Shown piece by piece: positions 20,439-64,000 of a stretch of DNA of 64,000 bases; position 1 is the first letter of the stretch, and every line of letters begins with the position of its first letter. Source of the DNA: Entophlyctis helioformis (Eukaryota > Chytridiomycota > Chytridiomycetes > Chytridiales > Chytriomycetaceae); the NCBI GenBank assembly GCA_025526915.1, contig JAHLKH010000100.1, forward strand, positions 32,135 through 96,134, in the 5' to 3' direction. Below the pieces are notes generated by a model that made no database searches, was not told the DNA's origin, and was given only the letters and a program-made list of their open reading frames with translations. Made by a program: the position numbers and the translations under genes.

Positions 20439-20697
20439 TGTAACGGATACTCGGTCGCGGTCACGTGATCCACGTGATCCACGTGACCGGACAGACATTG
20501 TCGGGCCGCACCGGCCGCTCTGGTTTCCCCCGTTCTTGCAGTCGTCTGCCCGCCGTTCCCCTGCGTGCATACTCACTGCCCCGAGACCAGGTCTGTGCTG
20601 CCTCCCAATGAAGTAGTCGTCTGCCCGCCGTTCCCCTGCGTGCATACTCACTGCCCCGAGACCAGCCGGCAAGTCCGTCTGGAGGCCCAGTGCTACA
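20439..20697 (+). mobile_element. LTR B, family 1
   Basis: TGTAACGG...TGCTACA, 259 bp. It has three CACGTG palindromes and a 75-bp direct repeat. It is directly preceded by a GGGGGGAG polypurine tract, as expected for a 3' LTR, and directly followed by integrase coding sequence. Confidence 0.8.
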
Positions 20698-21624
20698 GTG
20701 CTCCTCAACGCTGAGGGCATCTCCTGGCCAGCGGACTCGCACTGCCCGCCGCTCACGGCCGCCAAGTGGCTCGGCCCCTTTGCCATCACCAGCCTGGACT
20801 CTGGTGAATCTGGCCTCAACTACACGCTCGCGCTGCCTGCCTCGCTGCACCGCATCCACAACGTGTTCCATGCCGACCGGATCTGCCCGTATGTCGACCC
20901 CCTGTCTGCACCCACCGGCCGCAAGGATGTGCCCTCAAGGCCTGACCCCGAGTACCATGCCGACGACGGCACGTCGGACAACTACGAGGTCGAGCGGATT
21001 GTCGACTCGCGCACTTATCGTGGCAAGATCGAGTATCTGGTCAAGTGGGTTGGCTATCCAGCCAATGACAACACATGGGTCCCAGCCGCCGACATGCGCA
21101 AGGCCCAGGACCTCGTCAAGGCGTTCCATGCTCGGCCGACCAAGGCACCTAAGGGCAAGGCGTCCAAACCGGCTCAGCCCACGCACGCGGCTCCTGCACC
21201 GGCTGCCCCTGCCCCCGCCACGGCGCCTGCCCCCACGCAGCCCAAGGCATCCAAGTCCTCTCGCCGCAAGCGCACTGCGCCTGCTCCTGCACCAGTGGCT
21301 TCTGCTCCAGCTGCAGCCACGCCTGCGGCACCTGCTCCGGCTGACAAGCCGATCGCACCTGCTGCACCCGCATCTCCCTCTCTCTCTCCATTGTTCCCTC
21401 CTCTCCCTCCTCCCTCTTCTCCTTCTTCCTTCTCTCTCTCTTCTCTTCCCCCTCTCAACCATCCTGCCCCACCTTGCCGCTCTGAGCGCACAGTTCCCCG
21501 TCCTGTGTCCTTCGGTCCATTGTTGCCCACACCTCTGCTTCTGTGTGTGCAACGCCCATGCATCCTCTTAGTCGCTGTTCATCCACTCTTCTTTCTTATG
21601 AGTGGCTGTCTACGCTGGGGGGAG
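20698..21624 (+). pseudogene. Chromovirus integrase C-terminus with chromodomain
   Basis: An open frame from 20698 encodes the GPF/GPY-type end of a Ty3 integrase (KWLGPFAITSLDSGESGLNY; LHRIHNVFHADRICPY). A textbook chromodomain follows (YEVERIVDSRTYRGKIEYLV; GYPANDNTWVPA), then a Pro/Ala-rich tail. Chromodomains direct integration to marked chromatin and define chromoviruses. Everything upstream of the integrase end is missing, replaced by LTR B. A polypurine tract (21617-21624) precedes the next LTR. Confidence 0.85.
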
Positions 21625-21884
21625 TGTAACGGATGCTCGGTCGTGGTCACGTGATCCACGTGATCCACGTGACCGGACAGACATTGTCGGGCCGCACCGG
21701 CCGCTCTGGTTTCCCCCGTTCTTGCAGTCGTCTGCCCGCCGTTCCCCTGCGTGCATACTCACTGCCCCGAGACCAGGTCTGTGCTACCTCCCAATGAAGT
21801 AGTCGTCTTCCCGCCGTTCCCCTGCATGCATACTCACTGCCCCTGCAACCAGCCGGCAAGCCCGCCTGGAGGACAAGTGTCACA
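21625..21884 (+). mobile_element. LTR C, family 1
   Basis: TGTAACGG...TGTCACA, 260 bp, with three CACGTG palindromes and a diverged 75-bp direct repeat. It ends the LTR cluster. The next 215 bases up to the stop of the minus-strand LRR gene show no feature. Confidence 0.75.
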
Positions 21885-22098: not shown

Positions 22099-25000
22099 TC
22101 ACTCATCACTTTCCATATGATGATGGAAACTCATCAAGTTTGAAGGGATACTTGTAAAGTTTTGCCAGTCCATAGCACTGATTATACCATGTTAGAATGT
22201 GTTGGGGTAAATGTAGAGCAAGGGATATACTTACAATTCAGTCAGATTGACAAGTTTGCCCAACTCAGCTGGGATGCTGCCAGATAACTGGTTGTTGGAC
22301 ATGTTCCTACCAGACTCAAGTCAGTCCAACTGCAAACAGGCACACAAGTCAATGTTATGCTTACAGCTCAGTCAAATTGACCAGATTTCCCATCTCAGCT
22401 GGGATGTTGCCTTCCAGTTGGTTTTCACAAAGATCCCTGTTATCATCAGGTAAGTTCATCTGCAAACAAACATATGAGAGAGTGAAATGCTTACAGTCCA
22501 GTCAGATTGATCAGATTGCCTAGTTCAGTTGGAATAATGCCTTTCAGTTTGTTGTGGTCAAGATCCCTGCAATCATTATGTAAGTTCATCTGCAAAGGGG
22601 CATATGTATAATACAGTACTCACAGCCTTGTCAGATTGACTAGGTTGCCCAGCTCAGTTGGGATGCTGCCTTCCAGATGGTTTTCACAAAGATTCCTGCA
22701 GTCATCAAGTCAGTCCATCTGCCAGTAAACACAAGTCAATGTAATGCTTACAGCTCAGTCAGATTGACAAGATTGCCCAGCTCAGTTGGGATGCTTCCTG
22801 ACAGCTGGTTGTTGAACAGATACCTGCAATCATTGAGTCAGTCCATCTGCAAACAGACATGAGACAATGCAATGCTTACAGCTCAATCAGATCAGCCAGC
22901 TTGCCCAGCTCTGTTGGAATGTTGCCTGTCAGCTGATTATTGTCAAGATCCCTAAAGTCATCAAGTCAGTCCTTCTGTAAACAGGCACATGAGACATGCC
23001 AATTCTTACAGCTCAATCAGATTGGCCAGTGTGCCCAACACAGGTGGGATGTTTCCTGACAGCTGGTTTTCAGAAAGGTACCTACAACCATCAATTCAGT
23101 CCATCTGCATTCAGACACACAAGACATTACAATGCTTACAATTCAGTCAGATTGACCAGATTGCCCAGTTCAGCTGGGATGTTTCCTGATAGCTGGTTTT
23201 GGTGAAGATACCTGCCATAATCAAGTCAGTCCATCTGCATTCAGACACAAGGGACATTACAATACTTACAGCCTTGTCAGATTGACCAGATTGCCCAGCT
23301 CAGCTGGGATGTTTCCTGAAAGACAGTTCTGGTAAAGATACCTGCAATGATCAAGTCAGTCCATCTGCCAGGAGGCATATGAGACCATGTAATGCTTACA
23401 GCTCAATCAGATCAGCCAGTCTGCCCAGCTCAGTTGGGATGCTTCCTGACAGCTGGTTTTCAGAAAGATCCCTATAATCATCACATCAGTCCATCTGCAA
23501 ACAGACACATATGACAGTGCAATGCTTACAGCTTTGTAAGATTGATCAGATTGCCCAGTTCAGTTGGGATGCCTCCTGACAGCTGGTTGTTGGAAAGGCC
23601 ACTGCAGTCATCAAGTCAGTTCAGCTGCTAGCATACACTTGAGGTGAATCAATGCTTACAGCTCAGTCAGATTGACCAGATTGCCAAGTTCAGATGGGAT
23701 GCTTCCTGACAGCTGGTTTTCAGAAAGATACCTGCAATAATCAAGTCAGTCCATCTGCAAACAGACACATGGGACATTACAATGCTTACAGCCATGTAAG
23801 ATTGACTAGATTTCCCAACTCAGTTGGGATGTTTCCTGATAGCTGGTTCTGGTAAAGATACCTACAGCCATCACATCAGTCCATCTGCAAACATTCACAC
23901 AAGCCAATGAAATACTTACAGCCTTGTCACTTTGATCAGATTGCCAAGCTCAGTTGGAATGTTGCCTGTCAGCTGGTTGTTGTCAAGATTCCTGCAACCA
24001 TCTAGTCAGTCCATCTGCAAACAGACACATATGACAGTGCAATGCTTACAGCCCAGTCAGATTGACTAGGTTGCCCAGTTCAGTTGGAATAATGCCTGTC
24101 AGCTGGTTGTTGTCAAGATATCTACAATCATCAAGTCAGTCTATTGCATCAAGGCACATTAGTTAGTAGCATACTTACAGCTCAGCCAGATTGACCAGTC
24201 TGCCCAGCTCAGCTGGGATGCTTCCTGACAGCTGGTTTTCAGAAAGATACCTGCAATCATCACATCAGTCCATCTGCAAACAGACGCACATCTCAATGCA
24301 ATGCTTACAGATCAGTCAGATTGACCAGATTGCCAAGTGCACTTGGAATGTTGCCTGATAGCTGGTTTTGGTACAGAAACCTACAGCCATCAAGTCAGTC
24401 CATCTGCAAAAAACATATGAGACAATGCAATTCATACAGGTTTGTCAGATTGACAAGATTGCCCAGCTCAGCTGGGATGCTTCCTGAAAGCTGGTTGCCA
24501 AACAGATACCTGCAATTATCATATCAGTCCATCTGCAAGCAGAGACATGAGACACTACAATACATACAGCTGTGTCAGATTGGCCAGGTTACCCAGTTCA
24601 GCAGGGATGCTTCCAGACAGCTGATTATTGTCAAGATCCCTACAACCATCAAGTCAGTTCATCTGTAAAGGGGCATACGAACAATACAATACTTACAGCC
24701 TTGTCAGATTGACCAGATTGCCCAGCTCAGTTGGAACACTCTGTGACAATTGGTTTTCAGAAAGATACCTGCAGTCACAAAGTCAGCTCTTCTGCAAGCA
24801 GGCACATGAGACATTACCATGCTTACAGCTGAGTCAAATTGGTCAGTTTGCCAAGCTCAGTTGGGATGTTTCCTGACAGCTGGTTTGCTGAAAGATCACT
24901 GCAATCATCAAGTCAGCTCATCTGCAAACAGACACATATGACAGTGCAATGCTTACAGCTCAGTCAGATTGATCAGATCGCCCAGTTCAGTTGGGATGTT

Positions 25001-28000
25001 GCCTTCCAGGTTGTTGTTGGACAGATCTCTGCAACCATCAAGTCAGTTCATCTGCAAACAGACAAATGAGACAATACAATGCTTACAACTTAGTCAAACT
25101 ATTCAGCTTGTAAATGCAACCAGGCACCTCCTTCAGCTCATTTTCTGAAAGGTCCCTGTTTTCCATCATGTCAAGCATCAGAACCACCCCCATGTTACAA
25201 TAGTCACAACCAACTCACAGAATCTCCAAGTTGGCCAGATTGCCAACCGTTTCAGGAAGCACTCCAAGTTCACAATTTGTGATACTCCTACAAGTCACTG
25301 TCTGTCAGCTGCCACAATCATCTGCAGTAAATGAAAGTCAACATACAGCTCTGCCAGACTGATCATCTTGCCAATGACAGAGATGTCATTGATTGCCTTG
25401 CCTCCAACCAGCCTGTCCAATAAAGGTCAGCCATGTTCAATCAAGGCAGAGCAGCACAATCCTTACAGCTTTGTCAGATTGGTTAGATTGGCAATGGTGC
25501 TGGAAGCTCTGAGATCTGGTTGTTGCACCATTGCTTTGAGGGTGTGAGTGGTTGCCAGTTCAAGCCAGACAAGGCATGGTACTCACAGTGTTCTGAGTTG
25601 AGTGAGTTTGCCAATGGATGCTGGCAACTGTGTGATCTGGTTATCAGCAATGTCACTTTGGATTGCACTCAATGTCAGTCACTCTCACCACAGCAGCCAC
25701 GTGGCACTCAAACTCACAGCTCATCAAGATGCTCCAACTTGAAGATAAAGTATGGCACAGATCCTTGCAGGTTGTTTTGTCCAAGCCGCCTGTTGCTCAA
25801 TGTCAGCCAGAGTGCCACATCCAGCAAGCCATATGAAGGCATGCTCACAGTGATGTCAACTTGGTCAGCTGGCAGATGCCTGGTGGGATTTCACCATCAA
25901 GCTCATTCTGGTCAAGCCACAACTCCTTGAGCATTGTCAGGCGACCAATGTCCTTGGGAATGATGCCAGACAGACTGCAACCAGTCAACCGCCTGTTTGC
26001 TCATAGCAATGTTTGGTGCATCAGTTACTTCTCAACCAGCATGCAGACAGCAATACTTACAGGGCAGTCAAGTTGTGCTGCTCATCCCACTCCATCTGCC
26101 ACTTTGGAGTGATGCGTTTGGCAGAATCGTCATAGAGGTTCATCAACTCGCCTGTTGGATGCTCAGAGTTGACTGTAATATCGCTGTCCTTGGCCCACTC
26201 TGGGAAGATGGCACACAGGATTTCGAGATCAGATGCATCATCCTCCACCTTGACAGTACCACCTGTCATTTGAACACAAAGAAGTGAGCAGACAGCTGGT
26301 AGATGAACAGAGCACAAACAATGACACACCATCAACCAGCCTGGTTGCCATGGTCAAGTCCTTGACAATTGTGGAAAAGTCAGGGCGATCATCAGGGTCA
26401 TGTTCACAGCAGGTCTTGAGAGTGTCCTGCAGATCCTGCCACACATCGCCGTTGATGTTGTTTGATGGCTGGAGTTGGTCGGCAGCCTGTGCCAAGACAT
26501 CCTGAGCAAGGACGCCAAATGCATAGACATCAACAGGTGGTTTTGGCTTCTGCTGTCCACCCGTCTTGCCTTGTCCAGCGCCTCTTGTTTTGGCTTCAGG
26601 CGCCATGTACTTGGCATGGCTGGTGCTGTGGGTGGATGCTGCCAAGGCGCGAATAGACTGCATGCCGACACTGATCTTGACCTTGCTGCCCTTGGAGTCT
26701 GTCATCAAGTTGTCTGTGTGAGTGCCCGCCTGTTGGCATCAGCAGCAACAACAAGACAGTCGACTGACCGAGATGGATGCGGCTCATGGACAGACTGCCA
26801 TGGACGACTGGTCCATCAGGTGCAAACACGTGCAGGTACTTGAGGCCGCGCGCAATACGAGCCAGAATCTGCAGGCGCTCTTGTACGCTCAGATCAGGGT
26901 GGACAGCCAAGTACGACTTGAGATCGTAGTCCATGTACGGCATGGCAATGAATGGCTTCTGGCCTTCCTTGCCCTTGAGACAGATGCCTGTAATGGGAAG
27001 CAGGTTGGCGTGACTGAGCTTGAACCACTGGCGTGCCTCATTCTCGATACTGGTGCACACAGCCTCGTCCAGGCTGTGCTTGAACTCCTTGACAATGATC
27101 TCGCTGCCATCCATCTTGGCCTTGTACACCGTGAATGTGCCCTTGGAGTCTTCAGGGACGGCGGAGATGAGAAAGTCGTCGTGGCGAAGGTGGAGAGCAC
27201 GTGGACGGACGTATCTGTGCAGTATCGCGTGTCAGTGGATGGACATGGTGCCGCGGTGGCAGCCCATGGCAGCAACACGCACTGCAGGATCCTGTCTGTC
27301 TTGGTGTCGATCAGGTTGAGTTTCTTGGCCGTGTGCATGAGCATGACAGCAGAGTCCACTTGCATGGCGAGCGAGATCAGCTGGTGGGTGGAGAGTGTCA
27401 GTCAACCAAGTGCACAGATCCATGAGAGCAAAGCGATCGTCACGCACCTCCTTGATCTTGGCAAGACGTTTCTTGTATCCAGCCATCTGGGCTTCAACCT
27501 CTGCCTTCTTGGCACCAATGACAATCTTGTACCAGCTACCGGTCGTGCTGGTGCCAGCCTGATGGACTTCTGAACCTCCTTGAGCAGATCCACAAGCTCG
27601 GCGCACTTGCCGCGCACATCGGCAGAGAACCACTGGTTGGCCATCGGTGCAAGGATCGTCTTGAGTTCCTTGAGGTCGGCCAGGAAGCTCTTCAGACCGC
27701 CAATGCTGTCCACGCCGTCCTTGATGTTGCTGAGGATGTTGTCGATGATGCCAATGGCGACGGCAATGCCTGGGATCGGCACAAAGTGTGATGCGGCCTT
27801 GGCAGCAGAGATGACGGTCGAGGCGACTTCCAGACCGTTGGTGGCGAGGAAGCGTGTCACAGCCTTGACGCTGCTGCCGCCGGTCTTCTTGGGAGCCTTG
27901 CGGATCATGTCGACAAACTCGACGACGGACGACGACAGCGTGGCGATGTTGGAGACGGTGGCCGTGTCAAAGTCGATCTCGTCCTCGCCAACTTCCTTGA

Positions 28001-28706
28001 GGAACGAGTTGCAGGCGGTCGTGAGCACATCATGGCCCTCGAGTGCCGATCCGAGGAACCCTTGAGCTTGTCGAACGCCGCATCTGCCGTGGCTGACTTG
28101 GCAGCCTGGGCCTGCGAGTCGTCTTCAACGACGGCGGCAGCAGAACGGGTTTCCTCGACAACCTGGCTCTGCAGCTCAAACAGCCTGCCGGCAATGCCGT
28201 TGATGGCGTCGACCAGATCGTCAGGCTTGGATGGATCGGCAGTCCTGATACGAGCCACCTCTTCTTCGAGCATCGCCACGAGCTCAGAGCGGAACGGTGT
28301 GTGTCAGTCAACAGCAGTGGCGGCGGCGGAAGCAAGGGCAGTGGCAGCAGCAGCAGCAGTGTGTGCACGGCCACACCTTGTTGGAGTCGCCTGCAGCTAC
28401 AACGGCACTGCTGATTGGCACACCTCTTGGAGCAGCGGATCGCTGCTCGTCATCCTCGACGGCCGAGACAGAGGGGAAGGCACTCTTGGTAGGAGCCGTT
28501 GGTGGGCCGATGTCAGGCTCGCTGCCGCAGGCGAGGCGGTCGTACCACTTGCTCAGCTTGCTCTTGCTGCTGCTGGCGGTCACACTTGGAGCGGCGATGG
28601 GACGAGGCGGCGTCGTGATGGCGGCCACACTTGGAGCAGTGCTGGGACGAGGCGACGCTGGTGGCGTCGGTCCGTCCGGCGGGCTGTTGTTGGGGCTGAC
28701 GGTCAT
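22099..28706 (-). CDS. MLKL/HeLo-like domain, pseudokinase and leucine-rich repeat protein (36 exons)
   Basis: The start ATG is at 28706. Large exons are 28377-28706, 27448-28282, 27283-27380, 26769-27214, 26330-26713, 26061-26262 and 25849-25992. Then come 28 exons of 66-72 nt down to 22235 and a last exon at 22099-22177, giving about 1505 residues. Residues 1-110 are Pro/Ser-rich. Residues about 115-425 are helical, with FVPIPGIAVAIGIIDNIL and amphipathic Leu-rich helices, like MLKL_NTD/HeLo-type executioner domains (inference). The kinase-like domain spans about 430-690: it keeps a VAIK-type lysine (IIVKEF), an alpha-C glutamate, YMAPEA and DVYAFGVLAQ. HRD is replaced by HGS and no DFG is seen, so it is a predicted pseudokinase. 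About 30 LRRs of the plant-like LSGxIPxELGxL type follow. No signal peptide or clear membrane span is seen. One-base losses near 28053, 27568 and 25490-25533 break the frame and may be assembly errors. Confidence 0.72.
22235..25992 (-). repeat. Tandem array of LRR exon + intron units (about 130 bp each)
   Basis: Twenty-eight single-LRR exons, plus one 144-nt exon carrying two LRRs (25849-25992). The 22 distal exons are all exactly 72 nt (for example 22235-22306, 22365-22436, 23140-23211, 24957-25028). The proximal ones are 66-72 nt. Every intron is phase 2, splitting the final Leu codon as CT|G, with donors GTAAGT/GTGAGT and acceptors CAG. Introns are mostly 47-60 nt and similar to each other (shared words such as GATGGACTGACTTGA), so exon and intron were duplicated together. 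Base composition is visibly more AT-rich than the flanks. Confidence 0.85.
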
Positions 28707-28919: not shown

Positions 28920-29974
28920 CTGTGTGGCTGTCTGCCGCGAGCGTTGGTGGACAGCCACTGCCAGATGCCCTTCTGGCTGGCAAGTGGGCAGGCAGATCGG
29001 CACTGCAAGTGTTTTGTCAGCCGCCTGCGTCAGATCTGCTCATGGCGAGGATGCTCATGCAGCCAGCTGGCAATGTGGTCGTCGCCCTTCTTCCTCGCCC
29101 ACGAAGCTGCTCTGTCAGCATCGCCTTCACGAGGTTGAGATGCTGGAACTCGACGACCGGCGAGATGGCCATGCTTGGCAGCATTCGCCATCGCCTGCCA
29201 AGCGCAGCCTTCCGTTCTGTGCCGATGCAGCCACACGATCACATCCAGATGCCCACAGGCAGCAGCATGGTCCATGGCCGTGTGGTGCAGGCAGCGCTTC
29301 CTGCCTCGTGCAGCATCTGGACAATGGCAAGATGGCCGCTGCAAGCCGCCTTGTCCATTGCTGCATAGCCATCAACAGTGTCGTACTGCTCAAGGTCGAC
29401 GCCGTGCTCCTTGACAAGGTGGCACAGCAGGCCGGTGTAACCATGAGCAATAGCCATCCAGCCAAGAGCAATCGCATGCTGAAAGTCGGGCAGATCCCAC
29501 CAGCCGTTGCACATGGGCACATGGAGGAGGCAGCCGTCCATGGGCAGCGGCCGAGAAGAGGTTGATGCTCTCAAGGAACTCGTGCTGGTGGCTGTCCTGC
29601 TCTGGCAACCGTGCTCGCAGACGGTGGGACATGGAGCGTGTCTTGACGAGCAGCAAGCCGCCGTGGCTGTCAGAACCGAGCCATGCGTCTGGCAGCAGCA
29701 GCAGGTCGCCTTGCCAGTCGAGTGTGATGGCGTCTCGCCACAGCACACGGACGACGTCGTCGAGCAGGCGGCTGTCGCTGTCGAGCATGCCATTGACAAA
29801 CAGAGCAAAGGTGTCTGCTGCCGTGAGAGTCGCCGACTGGGCATCTGCAGGCATGCTGGTCCAGAGACTGCTGCCAGACAGGTGTGGCTCGCTGTCCGTG
29901 CTGCTGTCCTTGCTGCTGCTGGCAGACATCGCGGTTGATGTGCTGTTGGGCAAGATGGACGCGGTGGCTGGCAC
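28920..29974 (-). pseudogene. Broken F-box/ankyrin-type protein, paralogue of the gene at 36169
   Basis: The frame from 29974 aligns with the intact gene at 36169-37947. ITLDWQGDLLLLPDAWLGSD corresponds to IDLDWPGDFGSLPSHSLDV, and further on CNGWWDLPDFQHAIALGWMA to RNGWFDMLDWSFPVALGWYA. Ankyrin repeats follow (AMDKAACSGHLAIVQMLHEA, AMDHAAACGHLDVIVWLH). The frame changes near 29560, 29280 and 29165, and only about three repeats remain against twelve in the intact copy. The start region abuts an integrase fragment at about 30009. Frameshifts may be mutations or assembly indels, but the shortened repeat region supports a dying copy. Confidence 0.6.
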
Positions 29975-30008
29975 GCGACGTTGAGCCAGATCCAGGCGTT
30001 GGTGGTGC

Positions 30009-30720
30009 GGCTCGCCTCATGCTGGCCACCAGGGCCGCGAACGAACACACGGCCGTCTGCGGATGCACTACTACTGGCCGGACATGGCTGCGTCGGTCGG
30101 CCGCTTTGTGGGCTCGTGCGACGCCTGCCAGCGGTTCAACTCGTCGACGCAGGCGCCTGCCGGTCTGCTGCACCCGCTGCCCATCCCTGCCGACCGCTTC
30201 CAGTCTGTGGCCTGCGACGTTGCGTTCATGCCCATGTCGGACGAGGGCAACGACGCTCTGTTTGTGGTTGTGGATCGCCTGACAAAGCTTGTCAAGTGCG
30301 TGCCAACGCGACGCGATGCGACTGCCGAGGATCTTGCCGCTCTGTTCCTCAACCGATGGGTGCTTGCTGGCCACGGCCTGCCGTCGTCTATCGTGTCGGA
30401 CCGCGACGCTCGCTTCCTGTCTGCCTTCTGGACGGCGCTCTGTGCGGCGCTGGACATTGAGCAGGTCATGGCAACGGCCCGCCACCAGGAGACCGACGGC
30501 CAGTCCGAACGCACCATCCGCACGCTCAAGGACCTGCTGTCCAAGTATGCCAACCACCGCGGCAGCAACTGGGAGCACATGCTCGATGCGGCTGTCCATG
30601 CCCTCAACTCTGCTCCAAGTGCATCGACTGGCTATGCTCCGTACTTTCTCGCCTTTGGCCTTGAGCCTCGCACGCTGCCACATGAGCCTGCAGCATTGTC
30701 GCCACCTGCTTTTCGAAGCA
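30009..30720 (+). mobile_element. Chromovirus integrase fragment, near-identical to 42166-42838
   Basis: It encodes HYYWPDM, the CDACQRF half of the zinc-binding HHCC module and the DDE core (first Asp in ACDVAF, second in SDRDARF, Glu in GQSERTIRTLKDLL). The frame runs on cleanly through YFLAFGLEPRTLPHEP, then homology ends near 30700. It is truncated at both ends and has no LTR beside it. Compared with the copy near 42.2 kb it lacks two one-base deletions, so it is the better-preserved reading frame. Confidence 0.85.
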
Positions 30721-31306
30721 CCATCTGTCAGGTACTACTCGTGCATGCATCTATATTATGCCAATGAACATCGTGTATACAAAGCACCGTTTGTCGGACT
30801 GTTGCCGAGTGGACGATGCGGCTGCTTCGAGCAGATGTATGCGAGTGGATCGTGTCTTGCCAAGGGGAATGCGAACGGGTTCTTTCTTGCATCATGTGCA
30901 ACGCAACGCAACACATGTGTTTTTGAGCCGTAGTTTGCCAGTGGCTCTGAGCGTGTGGGGGTGCATGTCGGATGCACGGCTGGACGCACACTCCGACGCA
31001 CACTCCGACCGGGGCAGAGGGGGCGAGCCGTTGATGCACGCGCCACCGACCCGACCCGACCCGTCACAGGGGGCCGCCAAGCAGCAATGGCGGTGGCGTT
31101 TCAAATTGTCTGTTTCAGTCCGTGCACCGTCGTGGCCATTGTCGGCGCTTTGCCCAGCGAGCAACTGCCGCAAGTGCATCCACGGCCGACACTCACCTGC
31201 GCACTCGCATAGCTCCACTTGCACGCACGCACACGCACACGCCGCACACGCCGCACACGTCGCACACCACGCACACCCATACACTTAGACGACCCGCCAG
31301 CCCGCC
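30721..31306. other. Intergenic, upstream region of SH3 gene 1
   Basis: No gene is supported. The last 100 bases before the ATG are ACGC/CACA-rich (about 31218-31275), a common feature upstream of genes in this window. Confidence 0.5.
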
Positions 31307-53123: not shown

Positions 53124-56100
53124 CATCGAAGCTGCGAAGAACGATGCAAAGAGGTTCTGGCGCGAGTACCTTGCCGGTGTCGCACCAGCCGAGCCACTGT
53201 CGCTCGGCAAGTGGGACTCTGACGCCATCTCCGAGGACAAGCCGCTGTCACTCGAGTGCAGTCTGCCGATGCCGCAACTCCAAGCGGTGTGCAAGGCGGC
53301 CGGCGTCACGGTCGCCGTGTTCCTCAAGGCAGCATGGGCCATGACGCTGCGCAAGTACACGCGATCCAGCGACATCGTGTTTGGCCAGGTGCTGTCTGGC
53401 CGTGAGATCCCCGTTGCTGGTGCCGATCGGTGAGTCGCATGCTGTTGTTGCTGCTTGTGGGTTGTGTGTGTATGGCTGTTGACTGACACTCGCACATGCA
53501 TCCTTGACTGCAGCATTGTTGGAGCCATGATCAACACCGTGCCGTGCAGAGTGCGCATCGAGTCGGACACCGCCGATGCATCCGATGTACTGAGTGCCGT
53601 GCAGTCTGACCACGGACAGATGCTGCCACACTCGCACACGGGTCTGATCGACGTGCACAAGTGGAGTGGCCTCGCATCGGACGCCAAGCTGTTCCAGACA
53701 CTGTTTGTGTTTGAGAACCTGCCAGAGGACGGCCGACTGTCTGGCGATGCTGGCTCCAAGCTGCCGTTCAGCCAAGCTGAATCGCAAGGATCGTCGCGGT
53801 CTTTGGCGTACACGTTCGAGCTGATCATGTTCCCAAGTGCAACTGGCATCAGCCTGACGGCACTGTACAATTTTGAACAGCTGTCGCACACGCAGGCGTC
53901 GTCGATCCTGGCCGAGTTTGACTTTACGGTCGGCCAGCTTGCATCTGCAGTCGCATCCAAGTCGTCGATCAAGCCGCTGTGGGATCTGTCGCCTGCTCAG
54001 ATGCAGCTGCTCGACGCACACAGCTTCGGACCACTCGTGGATCTGCCATACGAGGCAGTGCACCACGGCTTCGAGGCACGCGCAGTGGAGCATCCCGACT
54101 GGACGGCCGTCGAGTACGGCGACGACTCGGTCACGTATGGCGAACTGGACAAGTGCGGCACTCTGCTTGCCAACCAGATCGTCGCACTTGGCGGCATTGG
54201 CGTTGGCTCGCGTGTCGCAGTGATCATGCAGCGATGCCTCGAGTTCCCGCTTGCACTGCTCGCTGTGCTCAAGACTGGCGCGACGATTGTGCCGCTCGAC
54301 TCCAAGTTCCCAGCCGAGCGCATCCGGTTCATTCTCGCTGATGCCGGCGTGACGGTTGTGCTGTCGACTGAGTCTGAACAAGAGCGCATCGACCAGCTGC
54401 AGCTGCCATCCACCCTGCGAGTTGTGATGGTGTTGGCCGATGCTCTCCAGACAGCTGCATCAAACAAGGCCGTTGTCGCATTCCAGGCATCGGCGGACAA
54501 GCAGCACGCCGCATCTCGATCGGATGTGTTCATGATCGTGTACACGTCAGGCTCGACGGGCAACCCCAAGGGAGTGCCAGTGGCACACGCCGGTGCCGTC
54601 AACATCGTCAGCAACTGCAACCAGCGATTCGGATGCATGCCAGGCATGCGAATGGCGCAGTTCATGGCAGTCGGATTCGACGGCTGCCAGTGCGAGATCT
54701 GGACAGCACTCTGTAATAGTGGCACTCTTGTGCTTCGCGAGGAAGACGCCTTTCCACCATTGCGAAGGTCGACGCCATCATCATCACACCAACCGGTCTA
54801 TCGCAGCTTGGCGATCCGTCCAACTTCCCTGGTCTTATGGAGTAACTGTAGTTGGTGAGGCGTGTCCCAAGGAGCTCAAGGATCTGTGGGCGTCCAACGT
54901 AACGTTCACGAACGAATACGGACCAACGGAGATCTCGATCATGTCGCACGCTGCCAAGCTCGCTGTTGGCGATGACATCACAATCGGATCTGCCATCAAA
55001 ACGCCTCGTGCTACATCCTGGACGAGCAGCAGCGTCGCGTGCCTGCTGGCGTGATGGGCGAGATGTTCATTGGCGGCATTGGCGTGTCGCCTGGATACAT
55101 CAACCTTCCCGAGATGACGGCCGACAAGTTCCTGACCGATCCGTTTGCGAGCAGCGAGTTTGCAGCCAAGTGTGGCAGTCGCATGTTCAAGACAGGCGAT
55201 CTCGGACGCATGCTTCCCGACGGCCGCTTCGAGATCATTGGACGCCGCGACGACCAGGTCAAGCTCAAGGGATACCGCATTGAGCTGGACGAGGTTGCAG
55301 CCGCACTGATGAAGCACCCGCGTGTGACGGCGCCGCAGCGATTGTCAAGGACAAGACGCACCTAGTTGGCTTCGTGACACCGGCCGACATTGACGCCGAC
55401 GAGCTGCGCGATGTGGTGTCGGAGCACTTGCCAGCGTACATGGTGCCGGCCGTGTTTGTGGGACTGGACGCCATGCCGACCAACGCCAACGGCAAGACGG
55501 ACAAGAAGGCACTCGCCGCCATGGACGTTGTGATTGCTGTCGAGAGCCTGACGAGCGATGCCGAGATGCGCATGGCAGCCGTGTGGGCCGATGTGCTTGG
55601 CGTGCCGGTCGACTCGATTGGCCGCAACACGTCGTTCTTTGCACTTGGTGGCGACTCGATCTCGGCCATTCGTCTGGTTGCCAAGGCCAAGACTGCCGGC
55701 TTCGCCATCACCACAACCCTGATCTTCAAGTCGCCACGGCTGTCGTCGCTCGCTGCCGCCGCCAAGGTCGTTGCCACTGTCGATGCCGCACAGCTGTTTG
55801 CGCCAGTCTCTGGCCCTGTGCCGTTGACGCCCATCCAGCACAAGTTCTTCAACCACTCGTGGCTGGACATCAACCACTTCAACCAAGGCTTTGTTGTCAG
55901 GCCGCGCGATGCTCTCGACGCTGCGTCTCTGTGCTCGGCCATCGCTGCACTTGCCACGCACCACGACGTGTTCCGCACACGATACACGCGCACTGTGGAT
56001 GCTGTATCTGGCGCCATCGCTTGGTCGCAGCACATCCTGGCACCTGACGCCATTCCCGCCGTCAATGTGCCGTTTGTGCCGCTTGCATCTGTCGACGACC

Positions 56101-57250
56101 TCGAGGCCGCCGTGCGCAGCGTGCAGCAGTCGCTGTCCATCACCGACGGCCCTGTCTTTGCAGCATCGCTGTTTGGTCTTCCCGACGGCACGCAGCGTCT
56201 GCTGTTCACGGCACACCATCTGGTCGTGGATCTCGTGTCGTGGCGCATCCTGCTGGACGACTTGCAGACGCTGCTGACTGGCGGCTCGCTGCCGCCCAAG
56301 ACGCTCTCGTTCAAGGCGTGGTCGGAGCAGCAGACCGAGTTTGCGGCCCAGCTGAATGCTGCCAGCATTGCCAAGTGGGACGCATTCATGGGCCACGACG
56401 ACGGCTTTGGTCAGCAGCCCGATGTGGCGTCTGCCGATGGTGCTCTCGTGGCATCCACGGTGCACAGCAGTCGCGGTGTCGTGGATGCATCGGTCACCAG
56501 CCAGCTGGATGCCGCCAACATGCCGTATGGCACCAACATCCAGGACATTGTCCTTGCTGCGCTCACATTCGCACTGGCTGATGTGCGGTCGTCGGCAGAC
56601 AGCAACGGCAGCCACCAGCTGTGCATCGATCTCGAGGGCCACGGACGCGAGCCGTGGACTGACGGTCTCGACGTCACCAACACGGTCGGCTGGTTCACGA
56701 CGGTCTACCCAGCCATGTTCACGGCGTCTCGCGAGTCGCACATTGGCGACGTGCTGCGGCAGGTCAAGCACAAGCTGCGCAGTGTGCCGCACAAGGGACT
56801 GTCGTATGGCGCCATCAAGCACCTTGCGCCATCCAGCGACGCCACGGCAACCGTCCAGTCGCATGTTGGCCACCGCGTGTCGTTCAACTACTTCGGTCGT
56901 TTCCAGTCTCTCGAGGGCGACGATGCGTTCTTTGCCATGGACACGACACTCAATCAGGATTGGTCCGCCAACCCAGACGACAAGCTGTTCCACCCCGTGG
57001 GCATGAACTGTTTCCACGAAGGATCACAGCTTGTACTGGCTGTGACATCTGAAGAGTTCATGATGACGGCAGAGATGCTCGAGTTGTGGATGTCGCAGTG
57101 GTCAGTGTGGATGCAGCGCATTGTTGCACACTGCACAGACGCTGCGACGATCGGCGGCCGTGTGCTTGCCGACGTGCCGCTGCTGCCGTCTGAGGCTGCG
57201 CTTGCCGAGGCAGAGTCTGAGTCGCACACGGTGCTTGGACTGCGGCCGGT
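53124..57250 (+). CDS. NRPS module 1: partial C, then A, T and E domains
   Basis: Exons 53124-53429 and 53514 onwards. The condensation domain has only its C-terminal half (RFWREYLAG; VFLKAAWAMTLRKYT; GAMINTVPCRV). No HHxxxDG is found upstream. Adenylation spans about 54060-55500, with YTSGSTGNPKGVPVAH, NEYGPTE, TGDLGRMLPDG and NANGKTDKKAL. The carrier domain has LGGDSIS (about 55645). Epimerization spans about 55800-57180, with HHLVVD, EGHGRE, NTVGWFTTVYP and SFNYFGRF. This module would load and epimerize one amino acid. One-base frame changes occur near 54760, 54840, 55003 and 55335. By-eye specificity residues are D-G-C-T-T-V-E-I-M-K, uncertain because of the frame breaks. Confidence 0.8.
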
Positions 57251-60200
57251 TGATGTGGACGACATGTACCCGGTCACGCCGCTGCAGCTTGGATTCCTGT
57301 CTGCATGATGCGCGACCCGAGCGAGTACGTGGTGCAGACAGTGCTGGACATCCGCGGCGATCTTGATGTTGCGACGCTGCAGAAGGCATTTGGCGCTGTT
57401 GCAGAACAGTATGCGATCATGCGCACGGCGTTTGTGTCGACCAGCGGCGGCCTGATCCAGGTTGTTGCCAAGGCGGACCACAGCGAGTGGACACGCAGTG
57501 CAGACACGTGGCCGGTCGACACGCAGTCGCTTGATGCCATGACAGACGCGTTCCTTGCATCCGACCGCCAACGCGGCTTCAGCATGGCAAGCAAGTCGTT
57601 CCAGCGATTCCACAGCGTTGCTCTCGAAGGTAAGAGACAGCCGATGACTCCATGATTGTGTGGCTTGTACTTACTGCCATTGACACACATCCACCGCACT
57701 CGACATGTCAGATGGCCGTGTCCGCCTGTTCTGGACGCAGCACCACTCTGTCACAGATGGTTGGTCGTCACCTATCATCGAAAGCAACCTGATTCGAGCA
57801 TGTGTCAGCCAACCGGTGGTCGCCGAGGGAGCCTCGTTCCGTGACTATGTCGAGTGGCAGATCGGCCAGTCTCCCGACGCCAGCCAGGCGTTCTGGGCCG
57901 AGTCGCTGTCGCTGGTCGCCAATACGTCCAAGCTGTCGCTTCCAAAACCCGATGCCGACGCACTCCTTGGTCCCAAGTACAAGCGCTTCGAGGAGATTGT
58001 GACGCTTGCACGGCTCAACGAGGTGTGCAAGACGCAGGGCATCACAGTGTCGACACTGCTGCGTGCCGCCTGGGCCATGACACTGCGACACTACACACGC
58101 AGCGAGCATGTCGTGTTTGGCTCAGTTGTGTCTGGACGTGACGGCGGCATCGACGGCCTGGACCAATCGGTCGGTGTGCTCATCAACACGATCCCCGTGC
58201 CGGCTCACTTGACGGACGACATGACGGCGTCGCAGCTGCTTGCATCGATGCAGTCCTTCTCGGCGGATGCAATGCCGCACTCGCACAGCTCGCTTGTGGA
58301 CGTGCAGCGATGGTCAGGCGTGCCAACGACGGACAAGCTGTTTGACACGATCATGGTGTTTGAGAACTATCCGACGAGTGACGTTGACGGTGTCGAGCTG
58401 CCGTTCAGTCTTGACATGGTCGATGCTCAGGAGTTTGTCGATTCACTCTTGTCGGTAGGCGTTGGACAACAGGGCAACAAGCTCAACGTGTCATTCACGT
58501 TCGAGGCACACAACGTCCACGAGTCTGTCGTACGGTCGATGATCGACAAGTTTGCGACTGTCCTTGTCCAGCTCGCAGGCGAATCAGCGATCGACGGCAA
58601 GGTGACGGTTGCTGAGCTTGACCAGCTTACAATCGCACAATCGCAAGCACTCGTCAGGTTTGCACACGGACCGACCATGCCGCACAAGTACGATCTTGTC
58701 CACAACGCGTTCGAGGCGTGCGCTGCTCTCAACGCCGATGCTGTTGCCCTGGATGACGGCACCTCGACCGTCACATACGCACAGCTGGATGCACGCGCCA
58801 ACCAGGTCGCTCATCTGCTGCAGTCGCACGACGCCACTCGCGAGACGTCTGTTGCGCTCATTGTGACGCGATCGATCGAGTTTGTCGTTGGACTGCTCGG
58901 CGTGCTCAAGTCTGGTGCTGCATTCGTCCCCATCGAGGCATCCACGCCAGCCGACCGCATCAGCTACATGCTCGAGTCGTGCAATGTGGGCCATGTGCTC
59001 ACGACGGCAGCTGCAGCACACGCCGTGCCATCGACGTACAGCGGACTGGTGTTCCAGCTGGATGCTCTTTCTGCGGATCTGCCGACCACCAAGGCAGCCG
59101 AAATTGCGACGGCCGATGCACTCGCATACACCATCTTCACATCAGGCACGACCGGACTGCCCAAGGGAGTGCTGATCGAGCATGGCGGCATCTACGAGCG
59201 CATTGTCCACCATCCACTTTTCAGTCATCTGGCACCAGGCATCAACATGTCGCAGACATTCACTATCAGTGTGGATTCGGCATTGCACGACATTCTTTCG
59301 GCGCTTACGACCGGAGCGACTCTGCTCTTGTTCTCCAAGGAGTCTATCCTGGACATGATTGCCAAGGCCAACGTACTGTCGATCTCACCAAGCGGTCTGC
59401 AGCATATCCATCCGCGCGACTATCCGAACCTGCAAGTGGTCTTCCTCGTTTCGGAAGCATTGCCACAGTCACAGGTAGATCTGTGGGCGGAACACGTCAA
59501 GCTGTACTCGGACTATGGCGCAACCGAGACGACTATTCTCGCAACAGCGACATCGCAGCTGCTGCCAGGATCGCATGTGACGCTCGGCAAGCCGCTTGCC
59601 AACACGCGCATCTACGTGCTTGACGACCAGCTGCACACTGTCCCTGTCGGCGTCAAGGGCCGTCTGTTTATTGGCGGTGTTGGCATTGCGCGCGGATACC
59701 TGAACCGTCCCGACTTGACAGCCGAGAAGTTTGTGGCGGACATCAGCCAGCCGGACACACGCATGTACGACACGGGCGATATCGGACGATGGAACGCCGA
59801 CGGCCAGATCGAGTATCTCGGCCGCAGCGACGATCAAGTCAAGGTCAAGGGATACCGCATTGAGCTTGAGGAGGTGTCCAAGGTGCTGCAGCAGTGTGCA
59901 GGGGTCGACGGTGTTGTGACGATGGTGCGCGACGGAGCGATTGTTGCGTTTGTGACACCGACGAGCGTTGCTGTTGAGGCAGTGCTTGAGCACGCACATG
60001 GAAAGCTGCCGCAGTACATGGTGCCGTCCGCGATTGTGCTGTTGGAAACGATTCCGATGAATGTCAACGGCAAGGTGAGCAGGCGATGAATGCGGGCATT
60101 TGAGCGATGGTGAAGAGGATGATGACGCTGACATATGCGATTGATGATGGCGGTTTGGGGTGAATGGCAGGCGGACAAGAAGGCACTCGCCACCATGGAC

Positions 60201-61905
60201 GTTGTGATTGCTGTCGAGAGCCTGTCGAGCGATGCCGAGATGCGCATGGCAGCCGTGTGGGCCGATGTGCTTGGTGTGCCGGTCGACTCGATTGGCCGCA
60301 ACACGTCGTTCTTTGCACTTGGTGGCGACTCGATCTCGGCCATTCGTCTGGTTGCCAAGGCCAAGACTGCCGGGTTCGCCATCACCACAACCCTGATCTT
60401 CAAGTCGCCACGGCTGTCGTCGCTCGCTGCCGCCGCCAAGGTCGTTGCCACCGTCGATGACGCACAGCTGTTTGCGCCAGTCTCTGGCCCTGTGCCGTTG
60501 ACGCCCATCCAGCACAAGTTCTTCAACCACTCGTGGCTGGACATCAACCACTTCAACCAAGGCTTTGTTGTCAGGCCGCGCGATGCTCTCGACGCTGCGT
60601 CTCTGTGCTCGGCCATCGCTGCACTTGCCACGCACCACGACGTGTTCCGCACACGATACACGCGCACTGTGGATGCTGTATCTGGCACCATCACTTGGTC
60701 GCAGCACATCCTGGCACCTGACGCCATTCCCGCCGTCAATGTGCCGTTTGTGCCGCTTGCATCTGTCGACGACCTCGAGGCCGCCGTGCGCAGCGTGCAG
60801 CAGTCGCTGTCCATCACCGACGGCCCTGTCTTTGCAGCATCGCTGTTTGGTCTTCCCGACGGCACGCAGCGTCTGCTGTTCACGGCACACCATCTGGTCG
60901 TGGATCTCGTGTCGTGGCGCATCCTGCTGGACGACTTGCAGACGCTGCTGACTGGCGGCTCGCTGCCGCCCAAGACGCTCTCGTTCAAGGCGTGGTCGGA
61001 GCAGCAGACCGAGTTTGCGGCCCAGCTGAATGCTGCCAGCATTGCCAAGTGGGACGCATTCATGGGCCACGACGACGGCTTTGGTCAGCAGCCCGATGTG
61101 GCGTCTGCCGATGGTGCTCTCGTGGCATCCACGGTGCACAGCAGTCGCGGTGTCGTGGATGCATCGGTCACCAGCCAGCTGGATGCCGCCAACATGCCGT
61201 ATGGCACCAACATCCAGGACATTGTCCTTGCTGCGCTCACATTCGCACTGGCTGATGTGCGGTCGTCGGCAGACAGCAACGGCAGCCACCAGCTGTGCAT
61301 CGATCTCGAGGGCCACGGACGCGAGCCGTGGACTGACGGTCTCGACGTCACCAACACGGTCGGCTGGTTCACGACGGTCTACCCAGCCATGTTCACGGCG
61401 TCTCGCGAGTCGCACATTGGCGACGTGCTGCGGCAGGTCAAGCACAAGCTGCGCAGTGTGCCGCACAAGGGACTGTCGTATGGCGCCATCAAGCACCTTG
61501 CGCCATCCAGCGACGCCACGGCAACCGTCCAGTCGCATGCTGGCCACCGCGTGTCGTTCAACTACTTCGGTCGTTTCCAGTCTCTCGAGGGCGACGATGC
61601 GTTCTTTGCCATGGACACGACACTCAATCAGGATTGGTCCGCCAACCCAGACGACAAGCTGCTCCACCCCGTGGGCATGAACTGTTTCCACGAAGGATCA
61701 CAGCTTGTACTGGATGTGACATCTGAAGAGTTCATGATGACGGCAGAGATGCTCGAGTTGTGGATGTCGCAGTGGTCAGTGTGGATGCAGCGCATTGTTG
61801 CACACTGCACAGACTCTGCGACGATCGGCGGCCGTGTGCTTGCCGACGTGCCGCTGCTGCCGTCTGAGGCTGCGCTTGCCGAGGCAGAGTCTGAGTCGCA
61901 CACGG
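57251..61905 (+). CDS. NRPS module 2: C, A, T and E domains
   Basis: Condensation spans about 57251-58650 (HHSVTDGWS active site; SGRDGGIDG; LINTIPVPAH). It is split by an intron at 57630-57711 (phase 1). Adenylation at about 58690-60070 is in one clean frame (FTSGTTGLPKGVLIEHG; SDYGATETT; YDTGDIGRWNADGQIEYLGR; NVNGKVSR). An intron at 60075-60170 separates it from the carrier domain (LGGDSIS, about 60320), and epimerization follows at about 60470-61860. A base is missing at about 57306 relative to the duplicate at 61980, breaking the join from module 1. Condensation after an epimerization domain should be of the D-Cys-L (DCL) acceptor type. By-eye specificity residues are D-S-H-S-F-V-D-I-L-K. 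Confidence 0.85.
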
Positions 61906-63305
61906 TGCTTGGACTGCGGCCGGTTGATGTGGACGACATGTACCCGGTCACGCCGCTGCAGCTTGGATTCCTGTCTGCGATGATGCGCGACCCGAGCGAG
62001 TACGTGGTGCAGACAGTGCTGGACATCCGCGGCGATCTTGATGTTGCGACGCTGCAGAAGGCATTTGGCGCTGTTGCAGAACAGTATGCGATCATGCGCA
62101 CGGCGTTTGTGTCGACCAGCGGCGGCCTGATCCAGGTTGTTGCCAAGGCGGACCACAGCGAGTGGACACGCAGTGCAGACACGTGGCCGGTCGACACGCA
62201 GTCGCTTGATGCCATGACAGACGCGTTCCTTGCATCCGACCGCCAGCGCGGCTTCAGCATGGCAAGCAAGTCGTTCCAGCGATTCCACAGCGTTGCTCTC
62301 GAAGGTGAGAGACAACACCGATGACTCCATGTATTGTGTGGCTTGTACTTACTGCCATTGACACACATCCACCGCACTCGACATGTCAGATGGCCGTGTC
62401 CGCCTGTTCTGGACGCAGCACCACTCTGTCACAGATGGTTGGTCGTCACCTATCATCGAAAGCAACCTGATTCGAGCATGTGTCAGCCAACCGGTGGTCG
62501 CCGAGGGAGCCTCGTTCCGTGACTATGTCGAGTGGCAGATCGGCCAGTCTCCCGACGCCAGCCAGGCGTTCTGGGCCGAGTCGCTGTCGCTGGTCGCCAA
62601 TACGTCCAAGCTGTCGCTTCCAAAACCCGATGCCGACCGCACTCCTTGGTCCCAAGTACAAGCGCTTCGAGGAGATTGTGACGCTTGCACGGCTCAACGA
62701 GGTGTGCAAGACGCAGGGCATCACAGTGTCGACACTGCTGCGTGCCGCCTGGGCCATGACACTGCGACACTACACACGCAGCGAGCATGTCGTGTTTGGC
62801 TCAGTTGTGTCTGGACATGACGGCGGCATTGACGGCCTGGACCAGACAGTCGGTGTGCTCATCAACACGATCCCCGTGCCGGCTCACTTGACGGACGACA
62901 TGACGGCGTCGCAGCTGCTTGCATCGATGCAGTCCTTCTCGGCGGATGCAATGCCGCACTCGCACAGCTCGCTTGTGGACGTGCAGCGCTGGTCAGACGT
63001 GCCAACGACGGACAAGCTGTTTGACACGATCATGGTGTTTGAGAACTATCCGACGGGCGACGTTGACGGTGTACAGCTGCCGTTCAGTCTCGACATGGTC
63101 GATGCTCAGGAGTTTGCCGATTCACTCGTATCCGTGGCAGTTGGACAACAGGGCAACAAGCTCAACGTGTCATGCACGTTCGAGGCACACAACGTCCACG
63201 AGTCTGTCGTGCGGTCGATGATCGACAAGTTTGCGACTGTCCTTGTCCAGCTCGCAGGCGAATCAGCGATCGACGGCAAGGTGACGGTTGCTGAGCTTGA
63301 CCAGC
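60171..63305 (+). repeat. Second copy of a recent 3.1-kb NRPS duplication (first copy 55497-58628)
   Basis: The two blocks are offset by 4674 bp and differ at only scattered bases. They span carrier, epimerization and condensation domains, including the intron. Identity begins exactly at the acceptor of the 60075-60170 intron and ends where the following adenylation domains diverge (58628 versus 63305). Confidence 0.9.
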
Positions 63306-64000
63306 TTACAGTTGAACAGCAGCTGTTGTTCGACACGCACAGCTTCGGACCACTTGTGGATCTGCCATACGAGGCAGTGCACCACGGCTTCGAGGCACGC
63401 GCAGTGGAGCATCCCGACTGGACGGCCGTCGAGTACGGCGACGACTCGATCACGTATGGCGCGATGGACAAGTACGGCACTCTGCTTGCCAACCAGATCG
63501 TCGCACTTGGCGGCATTGGCGTTGGCTCGCGCGTCGCAGTGATCATGCAGCGATGCCTCGAGTTCCCGCTTGCACTGCTCGCTGTGCTCAAGACTGGCGC
63601 GACGATTGTGCCGCTCGACTCCAAGTTCCCAGCCGAGCGCATCCGGTTCATTCTCGCCGATGCCGGCGTGACGGTTGTGCTGTCGACTGAGTCTGAACAA
63701 GAGCGCATCGACCAGCTGCAGCTGCCATCCACCGTGCGAGTTGTGATGGTGTCGGCCGATGCTCTCCAGACAGCCGCATCAACCAAGGCCGTTGTCGCAT
63801 TCCAGGCATCGGCGGACAAGCAGCACGCCGCATCTCGATCGGATGTGTTTCATGATCGTGTAACACGTCAGGCTCGACGGGCAACCCCAAGGGCGTCCAG
63901 TGCCCATGCTGGTGCCGTCAATATCGTCAGCAACTGCAACCAGCGATTCGGATGCACGCCAGGCATGCGAATGGCGCAGTTTCATGGCAGTTCGGATTCG
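61906..64000 (+). CDS. NRPS module 3: C domain and start of A domain (runs off right edge)
   Basis: Condensation spans about 61925-63310, nearly identical to that of module 2, with the same HHSVTDGWS motif and an intron at 62305-62389. Relative to module 2 one extra C near 62636 breaks the frame. The adenylation start (63340-64000) is nearly identical to that of module 1, not module 2 (VDLPYEAVHHGFEARAVEHP-type opening, PLDSKFPAERIRF). In the last 160 bases at least four single-base differences from module 1 (near 63850, 63862, 63895 and 63980) destroy the frame, which looks like poor sequence at a contig end. Confidence 0.8.

Follow-up and report, generated by a model that had tools for sequence, protein, structure and literature searches.

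In the chytrid Entophlyctis helioformis, a single gene encodes a helical N-terminal domain, a kinase-like domain that has lost the catalytic Asp and DFG and an array of 30 leucine-rich repeats (LRRs). The gene belongs to a family that has expanded in this genome, whose LRRs vary most strongly on the concave face and which has relatives with intact kinase motifs. The best explanation, which we put forward tentatively as a quite possible one, is that the family consists of intracellular LRR receptors with an MLKL-like pseudokinase switch and a helical effector, which have expanded in two related chytrids. The caution results from the Pfam family MLKL_N, which misses both the window copy and the intact family member P0016.

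Structure and state of the gene

The stretch of DNA that was analysed, here called the window, comprises 64,000 nt of the E. helioformis contig JAHLKH010000100.1 (assembly GCA_025526915.1, positions 32,135-96,134); the genome amounts to 29.57 Mb in 482 contigs. E. helioformis is placed in the Chytridiales by the NCBI taxonomy and in the Rhizophydiales in the accessible text of PMC10470594. The gene is organised as follows:

22231..28706, minus strand: whole gene, from ATG to TAA; order confirmed by the intact paralogue L034/P0016
28377..28706, minus strand: exon 1, Pro/Ser/Thr-rich N-terminus of about 110 aa; donor GTGTGG, the same in L034
27448..28285, minus strand: exon 2, bulk of the helical MLKL_N-like domain; paralogues are open through it in a single frame
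27283..27380, minus strand: exon 3, final helix of this domain (LISLAMQVDSAVMLM); same exon in L034
26769..27214, minus strand: exon 4, pseudokinase N-lobe through the catalytic loop, with Lys and alpha-C Glu retained and HGS in place of HRD
26330..26713, minus strand: exon 5, pseudokinase C-lobe, in which APE is retained and DFG is missing
26061..26262, minus strand: exon 6, FPEW linker preceding the LRRs
22231..25992, minus strand: 30 LRRs in 29 exons, counted on the spliced translation

The placement of the exon 2 acceptor is putative and unclear, and the LRR exon acceptors at 25655 and 25533 were placed by eye. An earlier note on this DNA had read a helical domain, a kinase-like domain and LRRs, in this order, on the minus strand, which was borne out by translation and by the intact paralogues. 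It had also taken them for one fungal protein; indeed, the parts are not separate genes, as paralogue L034, when spliced, yields the N-terminal part of the NCBI protein P0016. Among 16 related proteins scanned, 14 matched a kinase family and 13 an LRR family. The LRRs, estimated at about 30, number exactly that: the first exon after the linker encodes two repeats and each of the other 28 encodes one. Most LRR exons are 72 nt long and are separated by phase-2 introns of 53-68 nt, which gives rise at the DNA level to a tandem array between 22230 and 25096 (a 130-bp unit in 22 copies, 74% matches). At the terminus of the array, the would-be donor reads TTG-TAA. By eye, no signal peptide was seen in exon 1. 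No clear transmembrane segment was found in eight sequences (top 19-residue hydropathy 1.3-1.9), and the family protein is therefore likely intracellular.

Compared with the intact paralogues, the window copy carries four single-base frame changes, which the earlier note had not mentioned: one near 28058, one near 27558 and two within the LRR exon 25533-25467. Several further copies are also broken or cut, and two lie close to TTAGGG tracts: the gene on C29, with a tract some 12 kb away where the contig ends (among 100 of 168 matches listed), and the copy on C286, about 9 kb from another. It is thus a serious possibility that the window copy, as one of a repetitive and telomere-proximal family, is decaying and has no function, irrespective of what the family does. 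Similar breaks, however, occur in HSP70 genes of the assembly. HSP70 matches at C41:2293-3914 and C64:66232-68014 abut in differing frames without room for an intron, which is a sign of single-base errors in the E. helioformis assembly, and the frame breaks in the window may therefore be assembly errors as well. A CCT gene on contig C150 may carry a similar frame shift. In addition, the dN/dS of the window copy is like that of the others (0.45 versus 0.47 for the helical domain and 0.41 versus 0.39 for the kinase exon, with unequal sets of loci for the two domains), which also speaks against decay. The window copy may be a relic, or it may look broken through assembly errors.

A multicopy family in two chytrids

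Searching the E. helioformis genome with the main helical piece gave 25 matches at 20 loci, including the window locus, and the kinase exon is present at 16 of these. The members on C318 (L045) and C27 (L046) are kinase-less: the linker and LRRs follow 92 and 68 nt past the last helical exon, with no kinase match in between. The copy on C286 has no kinase match, and the one on C111 is truncated by the contig end. At 18 of the 19 other loci, the helical match lies no more than 20 kb from a contig end, a figure to be read with the shortness of the contigs and the possibility that LRR arrays themselves break assemblies. Three protein searches returned only proteins of E. helioformis and Polyrhizophydium stewartii (13, 16 and 4 rows); these searches were word-based, and in two of them scoring was confined to the 7999 or 8000 candidates with the most words in common, so that more distant relatives may be missed. 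Some of the rows from P. stewartii represent different models of a single gene. Homologues with the same domain order were found in intact annotated E. helioformis paralogues, for example P0016, and in P. stewartii, which thus has the family too. On the same nine loci, mean dS was 0.19 for the helical domain, 0.59 for the kinase exon and 0.71 for the linker (medians 0.18, 0.54 and 0.32), as if parts had been exchanged between copies; the median dN/dS values were 0.46, 0.37 and 0.20, respectively.

Upstream of the gene, at about 29200-30000 on the minus strand, lies a peptide stretch that appears ankyrin-like by eye, and a Pfam search of positions 29239-30135 gave no match. The stretch recurs on C111 (L052:367-448) beside another copy, and the duplicated segment may therefore exceed the gene. 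Retroelement pieces, namely chromodomain and integrase (H2C2, rve) ORFs, flank the gene at 20617-21654 and 29985-30767, both on the plus strand. Further along the plus strand, positions 53434-64000, perhaps from 51198, encode a multi-module non-ribosomal peptide synthetase with Condensation, AMP-binding and PP-binding domains in successive ORFs, which runs off the window; to our knowledge, such an enzyme is unusual for a chytrid.

The pseudokinase

Judged by its motifs, the domain following the helical domain is a TKL-type pseudokinase. The window copy matches PF07714 at 3e-21. As described earlier, it keeps the Lys (IVKEF), the alpha-C Glu (IENEA) and the APE motif (MAPEA); it has HGS in place of HRD and, in the DFG region, the Asp-free sequence KISVGM. 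The same losses are found throughout the family: the catalytic Asp is kept at none of 16 loci (the loop is HGS at 15 and HCS at one) and DFG at none of the 15 loci with the next exon, and the catalytic loop in P. stewartii is HGS, HGA or HGN. An alignment of 11 members shows an invariant beta-3 Lys, an alpha-C Glu in ten (replaced by Asp in P0008) and a Gly-rich loop with a single Gly left.

A profile of the N-terminus and the kinase matched 603 sequences of solved structures at E <=1e-4, and the best 60 of these 603 all match in the kinase part. Among the matches listed, SymRK scored 59.7 bits, MET 58.6, animal MLKL 57.7 and IRAK3 55.0, which puts animal MLKL fifth among the best 60 of 603, 2 bits under the top. 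In the structural comparison, animal MLKL accounts for 4 of the 50 rows listed and is tied with others. When the kinase of one member was searched against the PDB, the top match was 6lba (2.6e-7; 'Protein kinase family protein', 572 aa), which we take to be Arabidopsis MLKL.

The helical N-terminal domain

The identity of the helical domain, proposed earlier to be of the MLKL or HeLo type, is supported in part. Pfam MLKL_N (PF22215, cut-off 27 bits) matches some members, in every case below the cut-off: three of six N-termini (best 4.8e-5), four of seven shorter pieces (P0009, P0014, P0010 and P0006; 6.9e-5 to 2.4e-3) and, with E values up to 1 admitted, seven of 16 whole proteins (best 2.8e-4). 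The four shorter-piece matches cover the same part of the profile, from 37-46 to 125-126 of 142, and wherever MLKL_N matches a member, it ranks first among the Pfam families. With six reversed N-termini, neither MLKL_N nor any family below 0.024 was obtained. No MLKL_N match was obtained for the shorter pieces of P0016, P0005 and P0015 or for the window copy, and HeLo, HELL and RPW8 are absent among the Pfam families listed for the window copy and the N-termini, a search by which HeLo may be missed. AlphaFold models from 16 and 20 sequences (pLDDT 57.1 and 62.7, pTM 0.31 and 0.43) both show helices in this part; they are of low confidence and too weak to exclude an MLKL or HeLo fold. The structural matches of the domain are generic helical bundles of a common kind. 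The helical domain thus appears MLKL_N-like, and an MLKL identity is supported, not proven.

The sub-threshold MLKL_N evidence, the generic bundles among the structural rows and a kinase that is no more similar to MLKL than to SymRK or MET would also suit a TKL-LRR family that serves in signalling or as a scaffold and has nothing to do with cell death; the helical domain would then be an independently derived module for oligomerisation or adaptor functions, and the pseudokinase would serve as a platform for docking. This explanation seems rather unlikely to us, as MLKL_N is the leading Pfam family in the matching members and is not found in the reversed controls, and as the concave LRR variability described below, together with the expansion in copy number, fits recognition better than housekeeping signalling.

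Relatives with active kinases

The pseudokinase exon also finds C153, C36, C223, C2, C64 and C56 at 28-37% identity. The three of these that were read, L001, L002 and L003 (C153, C223 and C36), all have VAVK or VAIK, HGDLKANN and an intact DFGL. Their kinases are followed by an FPEW, FPDW or FPGW linker and their N-termini are helical-looking; on C153 and C56, LRR-like matches were obtained downstream of the kinase. In an unrooted FastTree phylogeny of 17 sequences, the 11 pseudokinases stand apart from the rest with a support of 1.000. Their common order and linker point to a single superfamily that comprises an active and a dead branch. At the N-termini, MLKL_N matched C153 only at 0.04-0.055 and C223 not at all, and profile comparison of the window family with the N-termini of the active relatives gave nothing above the reversed control. 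A 1335-aa ORF on C111 (20315-24322, plus strand; L055:2316-6323) possibly represents the same plan with a WD40 sensor: it combines a weak MLKL_N-like match (E 0.033) with PF07714 (3.5e-30) and WD40 repeats (6.2e-49), and its kinase motifs read HGN and DMG by eye.

Variation in the LRR array

Variability was determined for 115 repeats of 72 nt from 12 genes. Positions 22, 0, 2 and 3 of the LRR unit, which lie around the concave strand, reach 3.57, 2.66, 3.12 and 2.73 bits, the framework Leu, Asn, Gly, Ile and Pro positions 0-0.78 bits, and positions 9 and 12, off the strand, 2.51 and 2.57 bits; variation is strongest on the concave face. Substitutions were counted in 105 units, with L048 omitted as near-identical to L034, for pairs with introns 60-95% alike. 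Here, pN was 0.55 at concave, 0.29-0.33 at other exposed and 0.035-0.045 at framework codons, and pS was 0.56-0.58 at concave codons, 0.32-0.34 in the framework and 0.37-0.39 overall. Concave pN therefore exceeds framework and overall pS, not concave pS (the pairs are non-independent and no formal selection test was made), and pN/pS at concave codons is about 0.8-1, not above 1. That the variability stems from repeat shuffling and gene conversion instead of selection for recognition, to which exon-intron units 67% alike on average and up to 88%, the dS inequality between domains as a sign of exchange between copies and the concave pN/pS near 1 would all be congenial, is improbable, since shuffling alone would not focus change at concave codons, and in the 23 pairs of units with introns 95-100% alike pN is still 0.27 at concave versus 0.015 at framework codons.

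Proposed mode of action

In the receptor model favoured here, the LRR array would bind a varying cue, as the variability of its concave face suggests. The pseudokinase may act as a non-catalytic switch, as in MLKL, a role suggested by the uniform loss of the catalytic Asp and DFG while the fold is kept. The helical domain, putatively a distant MLKL_N-type bundle, would then be freed, oligomerise and act, perhaps at membranes, to kill or arrest the cell. The active TKL relatives, which have this linker in common with the family, are candidates for triggers or for receptors acting in parallel and could provide a counterpart of the RIPK3-MLKL pair. The architecture, the catalytic loss, the expansion, the concave variability and the active relatives are directly observed; sensing, switching and killing we infer. 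A more far-reaching version appears doubtful at present: it holds that the family is an immune-type receptor system with an MLKL-like pseudokinase in the place of a NOD, a helical executioner and a diversifying LRR sensor, encoded at about 20 loci partly near telomeres and triggered by the active-kinase relatives. If true, it would represent both LRR-based recognition in fungi and a necroptosis-like receptor that is complete in itself.

Comparison with known systems

The earlier note knew of no description of this architecture in chytrid-like fungi, and in the literature searched, which was mainly open-access, a helical domain, a pseudokinase and LRRs in this order in one chytrid protein were likewise not found. 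If the inference holds, the family can be likened to MLKL- or NLR-type receptors. Like animal MLKL, which is activated by RIPK3 (PMC12881547), its members have an N-terminal helical domain followed by a pseudokinase, they show weak Pfam MLKL_N matches, and MLKL is among the closest solved kinases in the matches listed; in contrast to MLKL, which has no sensor repeats, the window copy has 30 C-terminal LRRs. The proteins cannot yet be assigned as MLKL. Plant MLKLs and wheat Pm13 combine an MLKL_NTD-type domain, to which the helical domain of the family may correspond, with a kinase, and 6lba tops the PDB search mentioned above. Both pseudokinases (AtMLKL) and active kinases (Pm13) exist among them (PMC10951266), which resembles the two branches in E. 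helioformis; however, the accessible part of that article describes no LRR array for them. MLKL-family proteins with Sel1 repeats are present in Glomeromycotina, and according to the accessible text of PMC8778642 the MLKL family was reported only there. Like the chytrid family, these proteins carry repeats and come from early-diverging fungi, but the repeats are Sel1 and not LRR.

Some HELL domains are combined with a kinase or pseudokinase domain in the same protein, and among fungal NLRs there are 'all-in-one' proteins with an N-terminal HeLo or HELL domain (PMC12881547). Fungal NLRs are described as carrying ANK, TPR or WD40 repeats instead of LRRs (PMC9815663, PMC10197012). The chytrid family differs from these proteins in having neither a NOD nor a HeLo or HELL Pfam match and, on this domain evidence, is not an NLR: NB-ARC and NACHT are not among the best 25 of 28 families in 16 members. 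In a six-frame search of the E. helioformis genome that ignored introns, NB-ARC gave no match and NACHT a single one (C17:90946-91446, 4.5e-7, in a 1043-aa open frame), on a contig without a family member. LRR receptor-like kinases, in which an LRR ectodomain precedes a transmembrane helix and the kinase, are also different, as the LRRs of the family are C-terminal to the kinase and no clear transmembrane segment was seen in the eight sequences. Soanes and Talbot (2010, PMC2939053) described four Batrachochytrium genes with both LRR and kinase domains and no transmembrane region; neither a helical domain nor a pseudokinase status is mentioned for them in the accessible text.

The same survey of 101 species reports, in its accessible part, that LRR pattern-recognition receptors are absent from fungi, which makes the chytrid family of high interest. 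If its members sense invaders via their LRRs and act via the MLKL-like domain, fungi would possess an LRR recognition system that they devised themselves. It would couple a necroptosis-type executioner directly to the sensor, and the sequence of steps in the evolution of MLKL would become testable. With pseudokinases and active-kinase relatives in one genome, a RIPK3-MLKL-like pair can be tested directly.
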